A stretch of DNA of 38,053 nucleotides from Lactiplantibacillus plajomi. GTDB lineage: Bacteria; Bacillota; Bacilli; Lactobacillales; Lactobacillaceae. The notes beneath the pieces were generated by a model. It ran no database searches, was not told the origin of the DNA, and saw nothing but the letters and a program-made list of their open reading frames with translations. The stretch lies in the NCBI RefSeq assembly GCF_005405405.1, contig NZ_BJDZ01000029.1, positions 1-38,053 on the forward strand, given 5' to 3'. Positions within the stretch are counted from its first letter, which is position 1; each line of letters begins with the position of its first letter. Made by a program: the position numbers and the translations under genes. Of this stretch, positions 6,578-19,115 are shown one piece after another.

Positions 6578-8985
<2,408 letters not shown>

Positions 8986-9014
8986 ACTAAAAAAATCCCG
9001 TTAAATCAACGTTT
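8986..9014 (-). promoter_or_regulatory. Very short leader between cas2 and the array
   Basis: Only 29 AT-rich bases separate the cas2 stop (9015-9017) from the first repeat. Any array promoter and integration signals must lie partly inside the end of cas2, or the array is read through from the cas operon. No convincing promoter is seen. Confidence 0.5.
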
Positions 9015-10861
<1,847 letters not shown>

Positions 10862-11536
10862 CTAGGCTCCTGGTAGGACCGTCATTAAGCCCATACCGTA
10901 CGCCTTTTCGCGGCCAATGCCCTTCTTCATTACATCTCGAAACGCATCAGCATCGGTAATTTTCAGGACGCCCTCAAAAGTGACCCGGCTCAACTTAACG
11001 GTCCTACTTTGTTTCTTGTGTAAAATTGGGTATTCCCGGTTAGTAACGTTGAACGCTTTTCGTAACTGTTCCGCTTCAAAGACGCTCGCTGGTTGTTCCA
11101 AAAGTTCGAAGCCAGATTTTTCCGACCGGTCTAACAACCACTTACACTGCTGGGCCACGGTCACGTGTGGAACCACGTGACCGCCCTGATCACCCGGAAA
11201 GCGGCGAACTTTATGGGTGGGATTAGCAGTTAATCGAAAGCGCAGGGTCTGGCCTACTTTTAAGCTGTTAAGAAACGAATCATACGGTTTCGTGGCCGCA
11301 GTGCCGCTAACCCCGTATTTTTCTAGTTCTTTCAGATCTGGTTTTTCTTCACTTAGAACTAATAAATATTTTTTGGTGCCTAGTTGGTCGATCCGCCATA
11401 AGTGCCGCAACCGTTTACGGTTAGCTACCTCTTGAGGAAAGCTCTGCTCAACCCAGTTATGGTAAGCACCCAAGTGAGTTAAATCCCGTGTCTTATACCG
11501 ATCATTAGTATCGATTTCAACTCTTGATAAATACAT
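10862..11536 (-). CDS. cas6e: Cas6e crRNA endoribonuclease
   Basis: A 224-residue Cas6e (CasE). It cuts pre-crRNA 3' of the repeat hairpin and stays in Cascade. It starts MYLSRVEI as usual. His21 and His26 (HLGAYHNW) match the region holding the catalytic histidine of the family. The glycine-rich loop GIGREKAYGMG is at the C-terminus. It sits 14 bases after cas5e with its own ribosome site. Confidence 0.95.
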   Translation of the reverse strand: MYLSRVEIDTNDRYKTRDLTHLGAYHNWVEQSFPQEVANRKRLRHLWRIDQLGTKKYLLVLSEEKPDLKELEKYGVSGTAATKPYDSFLNSLKVGQTLRFRLTANPTHKVRRFPGDQGGHVVPHVTVAQQCKWLLDRSEKSGFELLEQPASVFEAEQLRKAFNVTNREYPILHKKQSRTVKLSRVTFEGVLKITDADAFRDVMKKGIGREKAYGMGLMTVLPGA

Positions 11537-11550
11537 CGTGCTCCTCCTTC

Positions 11551-12276
11551 CTAGTTAAGTCCGCCGAAAAAGTCCAGTTCTGGTTTAGCTGCAGAATCCG
11601 ATTCCGGCTTTGATTTGAACCTTGAGTTGGGATTCGTTTTCGTCACGACCGTGGCTGTAACGGCCCTAAAACCGTATTGGCGGTCGCGTTGGTCAAAGGA
11701 TTCAACCCGGTCTTTCACTAACGTACTAGCCGTTGTTGGTAATAAATCCGCATCCGCCATAATTGACAAGCGTACCGTTGGCGACTGCTTTTTTTGGTAC
11801 CATTTCGCTGCTTGCCAATCTAACGTTTCGAGCACTTGCAACGGGTCACCGTCCAAGATTTCAGTCCGTAACGGCCCGGCCGGCACGTTCGCCCGCCGAC
11901 CTAGGAATAGTTGGAACTGCGGGTGCGCCAGTGCATCCCGTAACCGTTCAATTAAAGACTCATCGTCACTGCCTAGGGCCACCACAAATCGGGCGTCCTG
12001 TAAATAGCCACGGTACGTAATTTTACGGGTATCCGCTTTCCATTCAACGATGTGAAAGTCAGTCAACGGCACCCCGACTTGGTCGGTTCGAACTGCAAAT
12101 TGCAGGGCGTTTAAAGCCTTTACGCGCGAATCACGTCGCCGATAACCCAGCGCCGCAGCCAGCAAGCCGACGACCGCACTCTTTGAAGGGTAGTCGTTCG
12201 TTGTTCGCCGCTCAAAGGTCGCCTGATTCCCGTACGACTGTAACGGCGCAGTTAAGTTAATTATTAGTGTCTTCAT
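11551..12276 (-). CDS. cas5e: Cas5e, Cascade subunit
   Basis: A 241-residue Cas5e (CasD), which caps the 5' handle of the crRNA in Cascade. The N-terminal LTAPLQSYGNQATFERRTTNDYPSKS region and GLLAAALGYRR are typical. The C-terminus has a short tail of charged residues. The start lies 20 bases inside the 3' end of cas7e. Confidence 0.95.
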   Translation of the reverse strand: MKTLIINLTAPLQSYGNQATFERRTTNDYPSKSAVVGLLAAALGYRRRDSRVKALNALQFAVRTDQVGVPLTDFHIVEWKADTRKITYRGYLQDARFVVALGSDDESLIERLRDALAHPQFQLFLGRRANVPAGPLRTEILDGDPLQVLETLDWQAAKWYQKKQSPTVRLSIMADADLLPTTASTLVKDRVESFDQRDRQYGFRAVTATVVTKTNPNSRFKSKPESDSAAKPELDFFGGLN

Positions 12277-13366
12277 CCTGCACCGCCTCTTTCAAACTCT
12301 CGGTGATTGCGTCTAAGAATTTAGGTAACGTTTCAATCTTTTGGCCCGCCGTTGTATCGTAGTCGCTCAAAACAACGTTTAACAATGGTTTTTCAACTAG
12401 CTCCTGGTCCGTAATTTTTTGATAAGCGGCTTCGAGCTTGGCTTCCGACTGTTTCATGTAACCGTCTCGCGAAACGACCGGTTCTTCAAAAGCCGAAACC
12501 AGGTTAACTGGCGTGTCAGGCCGAACCGTAACCATCACGTAACTCGGTAAGGTCTTGTTAGCAAACGTGTTTTGTTTCCCGCTTGGCATTGAAAGCATGA
12601 ACGTCTTGATAAAGTTAACGGCACCCGTGATGGCGTCTTCCGCCCCCAAGTTGTGGCTCAGTTCATGCATGTTAATGTTAGCGTAGCGGTAAAGGGTCGC
12701 TGAATTAAATTCGATAGTCCCCAACATCGCCGCCCCGTTTTGGTCCTCTTCCTTGGCGTCGTCCAAAGCCGTATAGTAATCAAATTCAGGAACTACTTCA
12801 TGGGTCGACAAGGCGTGAGCAACCTGGGTCGCCGCATCCACGTTTAATTCGGGATTATCCGCAACCATCCGACCGAACAACGCTAAGTCAATCGCTTGGT
12901 CACCCTTAATCAGGGCCTTAATTTCTTTTTTAGCATCCTTGTCATCTAGCGACTCGTGATCAACGGCGTACTGGGCCAACTTTTCGATTTGACCGGGGCT
13001 AACCATCAATAGTGCCCCAGTTTCATAACGGCCGTCTTCCCCATCCTTGGGAACCGCAATCTTAATCCCTGTTGCCTTAAAAATCGCTTGAACCTTGGTC
13101 AGGACGTCCTTATCAGTCATTTCTGGTACCAACGTTTTAATCGCGGCACTTAACAATTGAGGCACCTTTTTTGTCCGTTTAGCAATCGTCACGTCATTTG
13201 CCTCAAATGCCTTCCGAACTGCTCGTTTCCAACTTTGCGATGAGACCCGCGCCCGGCTAACACCACCGTAGAGGGCCGTTTTAGGTGCCCCCGCATCGTC
13301 GCGGTTTAAGTTTGATGAAGGTACGGTCTGAAGGACGTTGATATCTACGTATACATTATTTTTCAT
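12257..13366 (-). CDS. cas7e: Cas7e, Cascade backbone subunit
   Basis: A 369-residue Cas7e (CasC). Six copies form the crRNA-binding backbone whose thumbs flip out every sixth spacer base, a point relevant to the guide found upstream of cas3. It starts VYVDINVLQTVPSSNLNRDDAGAPK and has GGVSRARVSSQSWKRAVR, both typical of the family. Five bases separate it from cse2. Confidence 0.96.
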   Translation of the reverse strand: MKNNVYVDINVLQTVPSSNLNRDDAGAPKTALYGGVSRARVSSQSWKRAVRKAFEANDVTIAKRTKKVPQLLSAAIKTLVPEMTDKDVLTKVQAIFKATGIKIAVPKDGEDGRYETGALLMVSPGQIEKLAQYAVDHESLDDKDAKKEIKALIKGDQAIDLALFGRMVADNPELNVDAATQVAHALSTHEVVPEFDYYTALDDAKEEDQNGAAMLGTIEFNSATLYRYANINMHELSHNLGAEDAITGAVNFIKTFMLSMPSGKQNTFANKTLPSYVMVTVRPDTPVNLVSAFEEPVVSRDGYMKQSEAKLEAAYQKITDQELVEKPLLNVVLSDYDTTAGQKIETLPKFLDAITESLKEAVQDEDTNN

Positions 13367-13371
13367 TGAAG

Positions 13372-13992
13372 TTACTCCCCTTTTGTTTGTGTGTGATCAG
13401 TTTGAACGAAAAAGTATTGTTGGCCCCACCGTAAGCGAATTCGGTTAGCGGCGGTATAGCCGAATTGGAATTGATAAAAATCCTGTGCGAGTTGGCCGTA
13501 ATCGACCTGAACACCAGCCGAGCGGGCTTTTAACATACTAACGAGGTGTCCCAACGCGTCAAATACCGCGTCAATATTGGTCGTCGCCAACACTGCCTGA
13601 ACCCGGCGGTCCAAAGCATCCTTGTAATCCGGATTGGCACGAATCAGCGCCAACGCCGCAAATAAATCCTTGCCCTTAGTCTTTTCTTCGCCATTTTCAT
13701 CCTGGTGTTTCCAACCAAGCTGATCATAAACGAACGTCGACTGTGCTTGCTGGTGAATGGCGTATAACCGTACGGCCGCATAGACCGCCTTTTCCGCCTT
13801 AGTCGGTTGGCCATCACGACTGAGCATCGTTTCCGGTATACTACCCAGCATGACCGGCCAAACGCTTTGCGCGCGCGGACTAGTTAGTTTTGGGGCCGTT
13901 CTTAGGCTTGCTAACACACCTTTATTTTCATTGCCATCATTGTAAAGTCGCAAAATAATTTGCCGAGTACTTTTAGCTATTTCATTCGTCAT
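13372..13992 (-). CDS. cse2: Cse2 (CasB), Cascade small subunit
   Basis: A 206-residue Cse2, an all-alpha small subunit present in two copies that binds the displaced DNA strand. RAQSVWPVMLG and the C-terminal QLAQDFYQFQFG region fit the family. It lies between cse1 and cas7e with five-base gaps on both sides. Confidence 0.92.
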   Translation of the reverse strand: MTNEIAKSTRQIILRLYNDGNENKGVLASLRTAPKLTSPRAQSVWPVMLGSIPETMLSRDGQPTKAEKAVYAAVRLYAIHQQAQSTFVYDQLGWKHQDENGEEKTKGKDLFAALALIRANPDYKDALDRRVQAVLATTNIDAVFDALGHLVSMLKARSAGVQVDYGQLAQDFYQFQFGYTAANRIRLRWGQQYFFVQTDHTQTKGE

Positions 13993-13997
13993 GCCCG

Positions 13998-15668
13998 TTA
14001 TCCCTCCTTAAGATCCTTCTTGATTTTCCACTGATAGCGGCTTGTCGCTGTGAAGATATTGTCGACGCCGTGCTCACCAGTAATCCCCTTTACGTCCCGC
14101 GGCGAGCTGGTTTGCATCACCATATTCGCCGCGTCCAACGCCATTCGATGTAGCGTGTCTTGCCAAGCTTCGATCCGTTCCAACCGACCCTGCTTAGCAC
14201 CTTGTAAACTAGCTAACCAGGCCTTGAACGGTTCATTAAGTTGGCTATAAAATTGATCACTTAACTGCCCCGCATATGGTCGCGGTTCAATTCCCCTGAT
14301 AGTGGCGACACTGGCCGCAAAACCGTAAAAATCGCGACCAATGGTTTGCGTCTTTTGGACAACCCCTTCAATTCGCGTCTGCCACTGCTGATCGAAAAGC
14401 ACGTCGGCCATGAGTTGCATATCATCATGGTATTCCGCAACGGGTAAGTTGGCGGGGGCCCCACCACTAATGAACGTCACGGTTGCTAAAGCTAACGGCT
14501 GGTTATCCGCAATCAACCCACGTTCAGTCAACAAATCCAACCATTTCACAATTCCGGGAGCATTTTTACTGCCATCAACGGTTGAAAGCCCCACGTAACT
14601 CCCAAAATTACGCCACATGGCCGTGGTCACGTTGTAGCGGGTCGCCGGGGAGTCGATTTCCGTTTTCTTATCCCGTTTCCAAGTGGTCATCGGTTCAATA
14701 TGGGCGTTGTCAGCGGCAAACATCGGCACGCCGGCGCTAAAAATTGTTGGTTCCCCCTGATCCGACCACTCGACGTGTAAGATTCGCGCCCAGGTCGTAT
14801 ATAACTCCGCCAAATTATTCGGTAATTTTTGATTTTCACGTTCCGCAACGTAGGTCTGAATATCATCGTATTCCCAAACCGGGTGTTGCGGTGCTACCGG
14901 AACTTCCTTGCTAACCAGGACTAAGTTCAACATCAACATTTCAAATAACGATTGCGTGCTATCGACGTAAACCGCATTTAGTTTATATAGCCAGCCCGAC
15001 GACGATGAAAATTTATCAGTCGTTTCAACCTTCGTCTTATCGGTCGTCCCCGCGTAATTCTGATAGGTGATTAACCAGCGGGCGAGTTCGTCCAAACTAA
15101 GTTGGTTTTTGGTCTCGTCAGCCTTAGGCGCAAACAGTGCCGGCGTATTGTTACTTTCAGAGACCCGCCGATTCAGTTGCTTTAACGCCACGGTTCCTTT
15201 GCCAAGGGCCACCCGCTTGGACTTTGCGACTAACGCGTCGTAGTCGTTCGCTGTCACCTGATAAAACGGGTGCTCACCGAACAAGTCGAATTTATCCGCC
15301 TGTTGCTTTAAATAATCTGTGACAACCGTTGAAAACTGGCCGTTTTCGTATAGTTGACTCCAAGTGTCTAGTAGCTGATTTTCAGCCTCCTCGGGATCAA
15401 CATCCACGTTTCGTTGCGCTGCCGGATCGGTTGCAATCCAATCATAACGGTCACCCTCAACGTTGTAGCGTGAATAAACAGTTGTTAAAATAGCTAATAA
15501 CAACCTAAAAATAGCCAAATCTTGGGTGCGCATGTCCCCCGCCAACTGCCGGTAATCCTGGGCGTGCTCGAACAACTCAATTAATGAGACGGTTTCGGGC
15601 TGATTACCATCGCGCCGAATGACTTTAATCCAGGGTTCGGTGGTTAAATTAAACGTCTGTGTCTGCAT
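13998..15668 (-). CDS. cse1: Cse1 (CasA, Cas8e), Cascade large subunit
   Basis: A 556-residue Cas8e, the subunit that recognises the PAM and recruits Cas3. It starts FNLTTEPWIKVIRRDG and contains QDLAIFRLLLAILTTVYSR, both typical of CasA. A middle segment has ARILHVEWSDQGEPTIFSAG, and a C-terminal four-helix bundle follows. The ATG abuts the cas3 stop directly. Confidence 0.95.
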   Translation of the reverse strand: MQTQTFNLTTEPWIKVIRRDGNQPETVSLIELFEHAQDYRQLAGDMRTQDLAIFRLLLAILTTVYSRYNVEGDRYDWIATDPAAQRNVDVDPEEAENQLLDTWSQLYENGQFSTVVTDYLKQQADKFDLFGEHPFYQVTANDYDALVAKSKRVALGKGTVALKQLNRRVSESNNTPALFAPKADETKNQLSLDELARWLITYQNYAGTTDKTKVETTDKFSSSSGWLYKLNAVYVDSTQSLFEMLMLNLVLVSKEVPVAPQHPVWEYDDIQTYVAERENQKLPNNLAELYTTWARILHVEWSDQGEPTIFSAGVPMFAADNAHIEPMTTWKRDKKTEIDSPATRYNVTTAMWRNFGSYVGLSTVDGSKNAPGIVKWLDLLTERGLIADNQPLALATVTFISGGAPANLPVAEYHDDMQLMADVLFDQQWQTRIEGVVQKTQTIGRDFYGFAASVATIRGIEPRPYAGQLSDQFYSQLNEPFKAWLASLQGAKQGRLERIEAWQDTLHRMALDAANMVMQTSSPRDVKGITGEHGVDNIFTATSRYQWKIKKDLKEG

Positions 15669-18600
15669 TCACTCATCCTCCTTTTGATAACTTAATCCGT
15701 AGCTTGGCGAGTAGCTTAAGCGCCAGCCCAGCAAACAAGCCGTGTTATTCGCATCTAAAACTAGTGCCACTGCGCCTCGTAGCCACATTTCACTCCGCCA
15801 AGCTGGAAATAGCGCTTGCGTATCGCTCTCCAATTTTTTAATGGCATCGTCCAATTTTCCCAGCGTCACGGCCGCCGGAATTCGAATCACTTGTTGCGAA
15901 ATGGCTTTCGGCGTGACGCTGTCGATTGGGCGCCCGTCCAGTAAAAACTTTCCAGTGGCCGTTTTCCGTACCAAAATCACTTCCAAGGTCTCTTGAATAT
16001 CCCGAACCATTGCGTTGGCGTGAACGCTGTCGGCATCCGTACTTTTAAGTGCGCGGTCGAGCCAGCCCAACAAATTTGCAAACTTTCCTGTTTTGGGCGC
16101 TTTGATCTGAAACCCCTCCGCTTTTTGCAATTGGAGCGCAACTTTCTTATTAAAGGCCGCTTTTAAAGGTTCAATCGCTTCAATTTGTTGATCAGTTTGT
16201 TCGTCATACACCTGCTGAACCAGTGGTGAGATGTCATCCGGTAACGTAATCTTGTCGGCCAAGAAATGGTCCGTTTTAGTCAATAAATAGTCGCCATAGA
16301 TTGCCTGGTTAGCATCACCGTAGTCACCGACGCCGTTAATACCTAAAACGAATAGTCGCGGTTGGCGTAGCTTTGCCGGTCGCTTAACTTGGTGGCGGTG
16401 CAGGCGGCCGACCCGTTGTAAAATCAGGTCGACTGGGGCAATGTCGGTATACATCACGTCAAAATCAACGTCTAACGATTGTTCCAACACTTGCGTCCCG
16501 ATAACGATCATTTTGTCCGGTCGCGCCTGACCCTTACCAATCGAATTTTGTAACTTTTTCTCTTGGACAGCGCGGTCTGGCGCTAAGAAGGCCGAGTGTA
16601 AAACCATTAGTTTGACATCACTAACCCGGGCGACAAGTTCTGCCAAGGTCTGGGCCCTTCTAACCGTATTGACAATGATGCCCGCTACCCCGCCATCGCT
16701 TAGCTGACTAAGTACGTGTTGAATCAACTGTTCATCGTCACCTGTAAGGCGCTCAACTGCCACCTCTTGCGTAATCTGACCATTATTTTGTGACTGATCA
16801 GTAACCTGCTTAATTTCACAACCATCAACCAAACTGAGCAACGGGTAGGCGGTCGTCATTTTCCAATTTGCTGGTGCAACGAGTTGCTTTTCATAACGAC
16901 TACCATACTTACCCCTTAAATACGCATCAATTAACGAATTTCTTTTTTCTTTCGGCAGCGTTGCTGATAAAATGATCACAGGAACGTGGTAAGCACCTAA
17001 CCAAGTCAGCGCCATTGTCAGGTAGCTACTCATATAGGCGTCGTATGCGTGCACTTCATCAATGATGACGACCTTCTCACTAAGCCCGAAGTGGCGTAAA
17101 AATAGGTGCTTTTGTTTCAAGCCCATCATTAATAAGTTATCGACCGTCCCCACCGAAAATGGCGTTAAAATTGACTTTTTACCCGTAAACCAGGCATCGG
17201 TACTGACCGTCCCGGCGTTAACGGCATCGTCAGCATCGTCTGGATCAAAGGCGTCAATGTTACTGGCACGTTGCAGTGTTTGATACAGGTCGTTGTAAGC
17301 GCTTTTGCCGTGGCTTAAATTAATGGCAAAGTTGCGATGTTGGTGCTCCGCTAGCTTAGCCACCCACTGCTCGACCCGCTTAAACATCGCGTCCGAGGTT
17401 GCCTGGGTCGGTAAGCCCATAAATACGCCATTGCGCCCGGTTTTATAGGCTAACTGTTCGGCCGCCAGTAGTGCAATTTCGGTTTTACCACTGCCCATGC
17501 CGGCCTCAATAATCACCATGCCGGGATCGGTTGCTTGTTCAATTTGGTTGGTCATCGTCGTCTGAAAATCACGGGCTTGAAACCCCCATCGTTGCTGATA
17601 CGGGTCGCCAGTTTCATTTAAGCGCTCGGGAACCCAATTATCGCTCCAATGCCAATTTAAGATGGCCCGTCTGAAACGACTCGTTGGATCGATTTTAACC
17701 GGGTCGTCCAACCCGATTAGCGGAAACAACGGAACTTGGACAATCGTATTTAGATAGCCCGCCGCATCCAAACAAGCTTCGAGGGAATTAAATCGCGCTC
17801 GCAACTCACCAAGTGGGGCTTCAGCGAGCACGTTTGTCGCAGTGGTTGCTAACTGTTGGCTGGCTACGGGCACGTCAGGATAAGCCGGTAACGCTAAGGC
17901 TTGTTGAATTTCATCGACCCGCTTTAGCACCCGCTTTGGCACCAAGTTAGACCCTGACAATTCCTGTTTCAGTAGTCGCAGCGAATAATCGACCGGTTTT
18001 GCCGCTAAGTTCTCCGTCGATGCCAACCAATCCGCCATGATCAACAGGCCTTCCAGTAATACCGCTTGCGGTTGGGACACCGCCGGAATTTCTTCAACAC
18101 TTTGATAGCCGGCAACCGCCAGTCCCCATTCAAGGATTGCTTCCTGAACGGCTTTCCAAGGTGCCTGAATTTGCTGATCAAAATCGGATTGATAGTAATT
18201 TTCCGTATAATCACGAAGGTTCTTTTTTGCCCGCTTATCCGGCGTTCGACCGTGGTGGGCACCAATAATTGCCGCCACTGAAAGCGGGACCCCCGCTTCT
18301 TCCAACAGCGCTTCTCCGGCAATGGTGTGGGGCGATTTCTTCGCATCTGGAAAAGAAGAATCTCTCAAATCTGAAAAGCCGGCACCCTTCAATTTCTCCA
18401 ATAAAGTTTCATCTAAATCAGCATTATGATTCCAAGATTGTTTGGACTGAAACACTGGTGTCGCTTTTCCAACGTCGTGGATTGCGCCTAAAAACTTCAC
18501 TAACTTTTGCGCCTCGTCCACTGACATTCCAGCTGCTAAACGTTGTCGAACACCATCACTGATCCAATTATTAAAAAGCCAGTTGATCGTGTTAGCTGTG

Positions 18601-18707
18601 TCAGATAAGTGGACTTGCAACGGCAACCAGAAATTACCTTCATCGGTGGACGTCTTTTTAGCCCACAGTGCGTCAATTAACTCCTCGGTCCGTGCAGTCA
18701 TCATCAT
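15669..18707 (-). CDS. cas3: Cas3 nuclease-helicase, type I-E
   Basis: A 1012-residue Cas3 that nicks and degrades DNA once Cascade forms a full R-loop. The N-terminal HD nuclease domain has His33, His77-Asp78 (AIHDVGKA) and GAHHGR. The helicase has Walker A GMGSGKTE (about residue 404), DEVH (about 551) and motif VI QRVGRLHRH (about 767). A Cas3 C-terminal domain ends the protein. Start: GGAGGGG lies 7 bases before the first of three adjacent ATG codons. First gene of the cas operon, so its promoter controls the whole set. Confidence 0.96.
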   Translation of the reverse strand: MMMTARTEELIDALWAKKTSTDEGNFWLPLQVHLSDTANTINWLFNNWISDGVRQRLAAGMSVDEAQKLVKFLGAIHDVGKATPVFQSKQSWNHNADLDETLLEKLKGAGFSDLRDSSFPDAKKSPHTIAGEALLEEAGVPLSVAAIIGAHHGRTPDKRAKKNLRDYTENYYQSDFDQQIQAPWKAVQEAILEWGLAVAGYQSVEEIPAVSQPQAVLLEGLLIMADWLASTENLAAKPVDYSLRLLKQELSGSNLVPKRVLKRVDEIQQALALPAYPDVPVASQQLATTATNVLAEAPLGELRARFNSLEACLDAAGYLNTIVQVPLFPLIGLDDPVKIDPTSRFRRAILNWHWSDNWVPERLNETGDPYQQRWGFQARDFQTTMTNQIEQATDPGMVIIEAGMGSGKTEIALLAAEQLAYKTGRNGVFMGLPTQATSDAMFKRVEQWVAKLAEHQHRNFAINLSHGKSAYNDLYQTLQRASNIDAFDPDDADDAVNAGTVSTDAWFTGKKSILTPFSVGTVDNLLMMGLKQKHLFLRHFGLSEKVVIIDEVHAYDAYMSSYLTMALTWLGAYHVPVIILSATLPKEKRNSLIDAYLRGKYGSRYEKQLVAPANWKMTTAYPLLSLVDGCEIKQVTDQSQNNGQITQEVAVERLTGDDEQLIQHVLSQLSDGGVAGIIVNTVRRAQTLAELVARVSDVKLMVLHSAFLAPDRAVQEKKLQNSIGKGQARPDKMIVIGTQVLEQSLDVDFDVMYTDIAPVDLILQRVGRLHRHQVKRPAKLRQPRLFVLGINGVGDYGDANQAIYGDYLLTKTDHFLADKITLPDDISPLVQQVYDEQTDQQIEAIEPLKAAFNKKVALQLQKAEGFQIKAPKTGKFANLLGWLDRALKSTDADSVHANAMVRDIQETLEVILVRKTATGKFLLDGRPIDSVTPKAISQQVIRIPAAVTLGKLDDAIKKLESDTQALFPAWRSEMWLRGAVALVLDANNTACLLGWRLSYSPSYGLSYQKEDE

Positions 18708-18753
18708 TCAATCCCCTCCTTTATTTAAAAACCAGCTAATTAACCTTGAAGTC

Positions 18754-18782
18754 AGTATATCATCACCACTTATATAATACAA
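18754..18782 (-). promoter_or_regulatory. Predicted promoter of the cas operon
   Basis: Leftward -35 TTGTAT (18777-18782) and -10 TATACT (18754-18759) with a 17-base spacer, giving a start near 18747 and a leader of about 40 bases before cas3. The -35 lies inside the stretch 18771-18789 that matches the spacer of the neighbouring two-repeat unit. Confidence 0.6.
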
Positions 18783-18789
18783 CTGTAAT
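18758..18789 (-). promoter_or_regulatory. Candidate Cascade target site in the cas promoter
   Basis: Read leftward from 18789 this 32-base site matches the guide spacer at positions 1-5, 7-11, 13-15, 17 and 19. Mismatches fall at 6, 12 and 18, the bases flipped out in Cascade, and at 16. Past position 19 the match is lost. The three bases before it are AAT, fitting the T/C base seen after the repeats in the main array. A bound Cascade would cover the -35 and reach the -10. Confidence 0.75.
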
Positions 18790-18811
18790 ATTGTTTATTA
18801 AAATAATGATA

Positions 18812-18828
18812 GACTGCTCACGGCAGTC
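18812..18828 (-). terminator. Terminator-like hairpin of the mini-CRISPR
   Basis: GACTGC and GCAGTC form a 6-bp stem with a 5-base loop, followed leftward by TATCATTATTTT. It overlaps the last bases of the degenerate repeat and would separate the guide RNA from the cas operon transcript. Confidence 0.5.
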
Positions 18829-18942
18829 CGACCCCCACATACGTAGGGAATACGCTAAATCTTCACTGTTTAAAACAACAGTAATTGGATCACCCCCGCA
18901 TACGTGGGGAATACTTGATAACACGCTATTGATCCATAATTC
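18812..18942 (-). ncRNA. CreR-like crRNA gene: two-repeat mini-CRISPR with own promoter and terminator
   Basis: Read leftward: -10 TATAAT (18949-18954), inferred start near 18942, repeat 1 (18887-18914, one change from the array consensus), a 33-base spacer (18854-18886), repeat 2 (18826-18853, eight changes), then the hairpin GACTGC-CGTGA-GCAGTC with a T-rich tail. Despite its changes, repeat 2 keeps a full hairpin: CCCTAC pairs with GTGGGG through a compensating A-U pair and a U-G pair, so Cas6e processing is plausible. The spacer resembles the cas promoter (see target site). Known CreR RNAs in other systems are crRNA-like guides that direct Cas effectors to repress cas genes; this unit fits that role. 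The alternative is a dead fragment of an old array. Confidence 0.8.
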
Positions 18943-18948
18943 TCATCC

Positions 18949-18954
18949 ATTATA
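18949..18954 (-). promoter_or_regulatory. -10 box of the mini-CRISPR
   Basis: A perfect TATAAT on the leftward strand, about 28 bases (after the likely start) from the first repeat. The -35 region is poor. Confidence 0.55.
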
Positions 18955-19046
18955 CCCTTTCACAACTTTTTCGGCATCTCATCTAAACTCAAATAACTTC
19001 AATGCATTACAATAAACGACAAAAATTTCATCCTCATCTAGATTGC

Positions 19047-19075
19047 TTTACAACCTAGTCCACCTCTGTTACACT
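19047..19075 (+). promoter_or_regulatory. Promoter of the padR operon
   Basis: TTTACA (19047-19052) and TACACT (19070-19075) with 17 bases between. The likely start near 19082 excludes the ATG at 19080 as a translation start. Confidence 0.7.
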
Positions 19076-19115
19076 ATCTATGTACCAATCCAACCTAGTG
19101 AAAGGTGGTGCCGTC

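Follow-up and report, generated by a model that had tools for sequence, protein, structure and literature searches.

A single-guide mini-array matching the cas3 promoter of Lactiplantibacillus plajomi is a probable type I-E CreR with counterparts across Lactobacillaceae

We identified a single-spacer mini-array next to the cas operon on a 38,053-nt stretch of Lactiplantibacillus plajomi DNA (contig NZ_BJDZ01000029.1; the whole stretch is referred to as the window), the guide of which matches the promoter region of cas3. The region 18954–18758 most probably comprises a type I-E CreR unit and its target, through which Cascade would repress its own operon. CreRs are cas-regulating RNAs (Liu et al. 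2023, Cell Host Microbe, as reviewed in PMC13131331, PMC12737573 and PMC12948488) that autorepress type I-B, I-E and V-A systems by partial promoter complementarity (PMC13131331) and sense crRNA abundance and anti-CRISPRs (PMC12737573, PMC12948488). The window element shares with them, as they are reviewed, a crRNA-like guide, partial complementarity to its own cas promoter and the lack of a coupled toxin (PMC13131331), and is very probably of this already known kind; the comparison draws on the reviews, the available text of which gives neither the type I-E organisms tested nor lactic acid bacteria nor spacers of 21–23 nt. A self-repressing guide of the CreR type had been proposed in a sequence-only reading of the window and is supported by covariation of guide and promoter beside the same PAM in relatives, with repression itself as the inferred step.

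The cas operon runs from 18707 to 9015 in the order cas3-cse1-cse2-cas7-cas5-cas6-cas1-cas2/DnaQ and is followed by the main CRISPR array:

15669..18707, minus strand: cas3, HD nuclease-helicase, first gene of the operon (Pfam)
13998..15668, minus strand: cse1 (cas8e; Pfam PF09481)
13372..13992, minus strand: cse2 (cas11; Pfam PF09485)
12257..13366, minus strand: cas7e (Pfam PF09344)
11551..12276, minus strand: cas5e (Pfam PF09704)
10862..11536, minus strand: cas6e, repeat endonuclease (Pfam PF08798)
9902..10858, minus strand: cas1 (Pfam PF01867)
9015..9905, minus strand: cas2 fused to a DnaQ-like exonuclease (Pfam PF09707 and PF00929)
6578..8985, minus strand: main CRISPR array, 39 perfect repeats and one degenerate end repeat (repeat scan)

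The type I-E gene set and the Cas2-DnaQ fusion, both recognized in the earlier reading, were confirmed by Pfam, and the full cognate Cascade and the Cas6 expected of a CreR locus are present. The main array begins 29 nt past the cas2-dnaQ stop (8985–9015), and its leader is therefore either very short or located inside cas2-dnaQ. The main array may rely on the cas promoter; if so, crRNA supply would be limited by the guide as well. At position 29, 31 of the 39 main-array repeats have T and eight have C. Four spacers of the main array have counterparts in Lactobacillus phages (Iacchus, Lpa804, phig1e) at 0–3 mismatches, and all four protospacers in the three phage stretches retrieved have the PAM TAAT. 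The PAM AAY is hence supported independently of the mini-array by both position 29 and the phage protospacers, and AAT is the tested PAM of the Ligilactobacillus salivarius type I-E Cascade (PMC11288051).

The mini-array lies between a PadR-like gene and cas3 and consists of the following parts:

18914-18826, minus strand: mini-array, two degenerate repeats and one spacer
18949..18954, minus strand: predicted -10 of the mini-array (TATAAT), read from the sequence, a weak candidate lacking a good -35 and absent from the scanner output
18887..18914, minus strand: first repeat (psi-R1), 1/28 mismatch to the main-array repeat, supplies the 5' handle GTGATCC
18854..18886, minus strand: spacer, 33 nt; guide proper 18885-18854, with 18886 corresponding to repeat position 29
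18826..18853, minus strand: second repeat (psi-R2), 7/28 mismatches, stem retained, 3' handle lost (GTCGGAC)
18811..18829, minus strand: intrinsic-terminator-like hairpin at the mini-array end, seven pairs and a T-rich tail

This arrangement, one guide between two degenerate repeats adjoining the cas operon, is that of a CreR mini-CRISPR and departs from an ordinary type I-E spacer in its repeats, which are one and seven changes off, and in position 29 (18886), which is A, unlike the T or C of the main array. The changes in psi-R2 relative to the main-array repeat fall mostly within its 3' handle. The mini-array also resembles CreA, the antitoxin guide of CreTA, in having two degenerate repeats, of which the first keeps the Cas5-binding handle and the second loses it (PMC9458426); as described there, psi-R1 of CreA is the more diverged repeat, whereas in the window it is psi-R2 (seven changes versus one, mostly the lost handle). 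One terminator-like hairpin was found where shuffled sequences gave 0.3 (fold z = -3.25). Transcription of the mini-array would start at a promoter of its own and end at the terminator-like hairpin, and cleavage of both repeats by Cas6e would yield one crRNA-like RNA with a canonical 5' handle and a 33-nt guide. The psi-R1 stem carries an A-C mismatch and folds less stably than the main repeat (-8.0 versus -13.2 kcal/mol), so processing of the mini-array RNA could be weak.

The site matched by the guide lies in the cas3 promoter region:

18758..18789, minus strand: whole target, 32 nt, aligned to guide 18885-18854
18779..18789, minus strand: target seed, positions 1–11, mismatched at position 6 only; the sole AAY site of this seed in the genome
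18790..18792, minus strand: target PAM, AAT in the sequence, with independent support for AAY that includes PMC11288051
18777..18782, minus strand: predicted -35 of the cas operon (TTGTAT), within the target at positions 8–13, weak with 3/6 consensus bases
18754..18759, minus strand: predicted extended -10 of the cas operon (TGA-TATACT), 17-nt gap to the -35

Guide and target, both on the minus strand, match at positions 1–5, 7–11, 13–15, 17 and 19 and mismatch at 6, 12, 16 and 18; past position 19 only 28 and 30 match. Re-alignment reproduced exactly the base-by-base comparison of the sequence-only reading, including its count of 14 matches among the 15 non-flipped positions of the first 17. 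The window guide thus has the limited seed complementarity to its predicted cognate cas promoter, beside a proper PAM, that characterizes a CreR. That the matched site covers the predicted cas -35 was likewise confirmed, the box being a weak prediction that depends on the good extended -10. The consensus scanner, which found promoter matches within the window at chance level (two versus 1.6 expected), omitted the TTGTAT/TATACT pair and gave TTAATA-16-TATTAT at 18801-18774 instead; the target overlaps both candidates. Poor -35 boxes are common to the predicted promoters of the mini-array and the cas operon.

Spacer and promoter are both AT-rich, and the background match rate is 0.32 per base, so a resemblance by chance has to be weighed. 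When the first 11 guide positions were shuffled and compared with the 53 AAY sites on both strands of the 660 nt around the cas3 start, a 10/10 seed match beside AAY arose in four of 20,000 shuffles, and related loci show the same arrangement with other letters; we regard coincidence as a negligible explanation. In the whole 2.76-Mb genome (77 contigs), the seed preceded by AAN occurs at two sites, the cas3 target with AAT and one with AAA, and a reversed-pattern control occurs at one. This uniqueness bears on whether the guide could instead be a CreA-like antitoxin repressing a small toxin gene or toxic RNA near the mini-array. CreA has the identical seed, its ten positions 1–5 and 7–11 being needed and positions 6 and 12 being free by mutation (PMC8501985); its target, as described, is a toxin RNA promoter, whereas the only AAY site in the genome that the window guide matches is the one upstream of cas3. 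The region 18708–19079 is overlapped by seven ORFs with a length of 20 aa or more. On the minus strand the longest has 53 aa and overlaps the mini-array, on the plus strand it has 89 aa and lies antisense to the mini-array; neither of these two has a Pfam match at E 0.01. Judged from these ORFs and the single matched site, an antitoxin role is very unlikely, with a short RNA toxin as the remaining conceivable partner.

Under the CreR reading, guide-loaded Cascade would recognize AAT and pair at positions 1–5, 7–11, 13–15 and 17 in a stretch that spans the -35 region of the cas3 operon, where it would block RNA polymerase and repress its own operon. Pairing ends at about position 19, so a full R-loop would presumably not form and Cas3 would leave the chromosome uncut, as judged from other systems. 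According to the published CreR model, abundant main-array crRNA, or an anti-CRISPR that disables Cascade, would lower the amount of CreR-loaded Cascade, upon which cas expression would rise. In the self-repression of Streptococcus pyogenes Cas9, a long form of the tracrRNA acts as the guide. There, too, the effector represses its own cas expression and anti-CRISPRs relieve it (PMC13131331), the difference being that the effector is Cas9. Binding of the L. salivarius Cascade beside AAT lowered a reporter to about 25% in a cell-free assay, which differs from the present case in its engineered, fully complementary guides and the omission of Cas3 (PMC11288051).

Comparison of guide and promoter in related strains had been named beforehand as a test, and the outcome is in favour: spacers that differ between loci fit the upstream region of their own locus, and the PAM is unchanged. 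Within the genus, cas3 was found in 12 of 21 genomes, and within the Lactobacillaceae in 73 of 397, at 74 places in the family (loci are denoted by L numbers); 73 of these were examined, L014 being left out for having less than 250 nt upstream, and L032, L045 and L062 have less than 400 nt upstream of cas3. Of five loci from a scan of named genomes, L034 was kept, L038 was dropped as lying on the same contig as L026, and L035–L037 were dropped as distant (33–37% identity). A unit was counted if at least nine of the ten seed positions (1–5, 7–11) matched beside an AAY PAM within 600 nt upstream of cas3; the repeat-and-handle scan was loosened so that units with one inserted base or an altered handle (L044, L070) were picked up as well, a handle-like end still being required. 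Self-matching mini-arrays were thus recovered at 19 of the 73 loci, window included, in eight genera, with 10/10 seed matches in 17 units and 9/10 in L050 and L059; as L008/L009 and L064/L069 are close relatives, the independent cases number fewer than 19. Two further 10/10 matches lie farther upstream (L011 and L067), bringing the total to 21 with a scan of up to 1500 nt, a range without its own control. In the genus of the window, units occur at five of 12 loci (L001, L002, L008, L009, L011). The target lies upstream of the mini-array in L008, L009, L064 and L069. In L011, the first repeat ends about 1056 nt ahead of cas3 and the site that fits the guide, at about -896, precedes a 191-aa ORF (Pfam PRiA4_ORF3) that is itself ahead of cas3; this guide may repress the 191-aa ORF gene together with the cas operon.

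Retention of the match in many lineages also bears on a guide that targets its own chromosome for primed adaptation or cleavage, not for repression. Mismatched targets are able to prime in type I-E systems; a conserved chromosomal target should be harmful and select for loss, and we therefore consider such a role extremely unlikely. The units are nevertheless not universal: none was detectable at 52 of the 73 family loci, including seven of 12 in the genus of the window, and upstream of cas3 in L034 (Levilactobacillus namurensis), which groups with L002 on the Cas3 tree, a mini-array was not found. The mini-array guide is therefore dispensable, and the L034 case indicates that units may be gained or lost quickly. 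On the Cas3 tree the 21 units require at least ten gains or losses (well-supported branches by themselves impose six) and show clustering (at least ten changes versus a mean of 18.5 after shuffling). A search of plasmid DNA with the promoter region returned no matches.

Guides and targets of related loci change in step. The related guides of the window and L002 differ at seed positions 1, 5 and 11 and their targets carry the same three differences, while position 6 differs in the spacer only and 12 in the target only. Likewise, co-changes were seen at positions 1, 7 and 10 in L064/L069, at 5, 9 and 17 in L059/L066, and at 5 and 11 in L021/L044. Taking eight pairs of relatives together, 26 seed cells differ, of which 25 have changed in guide and target alike; at positions 6 and 12 this holds for none of 14. 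The count is descriptive and not an independent test, as the loci were selected for a match in the seed and members recur among four of the eight pairs. The sole exception is position 10 in L059/L066, where the target alone differs, leaving L059 with its one seed mismatch. Guide and promoter accordingly co-evolve, an expectation that was set by this analysis and the earlier reading and not by the CreR paper.

An unmasked analysis is a fairer test than the co-change count. For this, 31 two-repeat units were picked by their repeats alone and scored over 17 positions of equal weight, with no PAM demanded (L050, L059, L066 and L069 failed the repeat test that defines the set and are outside it). 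Twelve of the 31 reached at least 13/17, and all twelve matched sites lie beside AAC or AAT. Their mismatches at positions 1 to 17 number 0, 0, 0, 0, 0, 7, 0, 0, 1, 1, 0, 9, 0, 0, 3, 4 and 8, i.e. position 6 is mismatched in seven units and position 12 in nine, as compared with two of 120 cells at positions 1–5 and 7–11. The six-base periodicity claimed for the window guide is thereby borne out at positions 6 and 12, and does not extend to position 18, which is not visibly free (it matches in 12 of the 19 units; position 17 matches in six). The other 19 of the 31 units score 10–12/17, among them L008, L009, L062 and L064, which were counted by the score omitting positions 6 and 12 and fall below 13/17 when unmasked, with a different site scoring best in three of the four. 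With the seed score, 16 of the 31 are below 9/10 within 600 nt, of which two (L011, L067) match farther off and several are ends of ordinary arrays.

Controls gave few comparable matches. Among 316 canonical array spacers scored in the same way none reached 10/10 and the best, two spacers, reached 9/10; 1406 pairings of spacers with foreign upstream regions gave 10/10 in three (two of them the near-identical sisters L008/L009) and 9 in 14; and 3800 shuffled spacers gave 10/10 in five and 9 in 31. Unmasked, ten of the 316 canonical spacers reached at least 13/17, six by hitting another copy of themselves and four beside other PAMs. Three borderline loci are outside the counts of 19 and 21: L052, for which a check by hand gave no match; L055, with 9/10 beside AAC and AAT upstream of its repeat; and L078, a weaker case with 8/10 in the seed and 13/17 overall beside AAC, which is one of the twelve unmasked high scorers. 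Separately, arrays with one spacer in two copies were observed at L017, L042 and L071.

The same mismatch profile weighs on the idea that the unit is a relic, i.e. a decaying, non-functional remnant of a past spacer acquisition from the cell's own cas promoter, or of its duplication. Both repeats of the window unit are degenerate, the 3' half of its spacer no longer matches, and positions 22–32 of the nine long units are at background (33 of 99 cells). Decay would not, however, spare positions 1–5 and 7–11 while 6 and 12 drift, nor would it alter spacer and target in step, and we judge a relic to be very unlikely. The repeats of the 19 units are consistent with the CreR reading. The handle GTGATCC is present in 17 first repeats, with near forms in the other two, a count that is partly imposed by the search for a handle-like end, and in none of the 19 second repeats; loss of the second handle fits the production of one guide, as expected. 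By an ungapped count, the stem of the first repeat has 7/7 pairs in nine of the 19 units, several of which differ from the consensus there, and fewer than five pairs in seven units. Judged from these sequences, upkeep of the stem is visible in some first repeats and is not demonstrable for all.

Spacers of the 19 units fall into two size classes, 21–23 nt in ten (L008, L009, L021, L022, L044, L051, L059, L063, L066, L073) and 33–34 nt in nine, with none between; the window unit belongs to the long class. The 12-nt gap equals two Cas7 steps of six bases each. Short guides do not pair farther than long ones, positions 13–17 matching in 30 of 50 and 27 of 45 cells, respectively. According to its title, Kuznedelov 2016 reports that shortened E. 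coli type I-E guides still interfere. Type I-B guides of 24 nt (PMC10989794) and of up to 26 nt (PMC10551041) repress without cutting. In type I-F1, cleavage is not triggered by shortened R-loops, and the same source terms type I-E less restricted (PMC7296934). Because of this last statement and the E. coli title, both of which speak against it, we treat guide length as a safety device in type I-E as a hypothesis.

Fifteen further loci, three on plasmids and twelve in non-Lactobacillaceae genomes of the order (three more extra-family match rows from the order search are not among them), yielded 10/10 matches beside AAC or AAT in six and 9/10 in one, with no other candidate above 9/10 in this set, for which no separate shuffles were made. 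In L092, L095 and L099, the guide-matched site and the mini-array upstream of cas3 are separated by a small gene, and the first repeat ends 62–72 nt ahead of cas3; the small-gene proteins of L092 and L099 match helix-turn-helix families (Pfam). From this layout, the guide of the three loci appears to sit inside the transcript unit that it would repress.

More generally, and as a tentative proposal to which we give somewhat less than even credence, type I-E systems of Lactobacillales may carry widespread, fast-evolving self-repressing guides of two size classes, the long ones safe through lost 3' complementarity and the short ones, 12 nt less, safe as the reduced Cascade does not call Cas3, with guide-target pairs that drift freely at positions 6 and 12, and with some guides downstream of the promoter they repress, so that one transcript would be both cas mRNA and repressor. 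Our literature search, in which subscription papers were poorly covered and which does not imply unpublished status, returned one review mentioning CreR for type I-E and nothing on this element in lactobacilli. What may be new is the breadth in lactic acid bacteria, the class of spacers shorter by 12 nt and the footprint of drift. Free drift at positions 6 and 12, if true, would be a natural record of the flipped-out bases. The natural guide-promoter pairs with matching changes allow tests of the type I-E seed rule, of the tolerance at positions 6 and 12, and of the guide length for binding without cutting. For the organism itself, the finding suggests a type I-E system of a lactic acid bacterium that uses its effector to throttle itself, a point of relevance to editing with the endogenous system and to the response to anti-CRISPRs.
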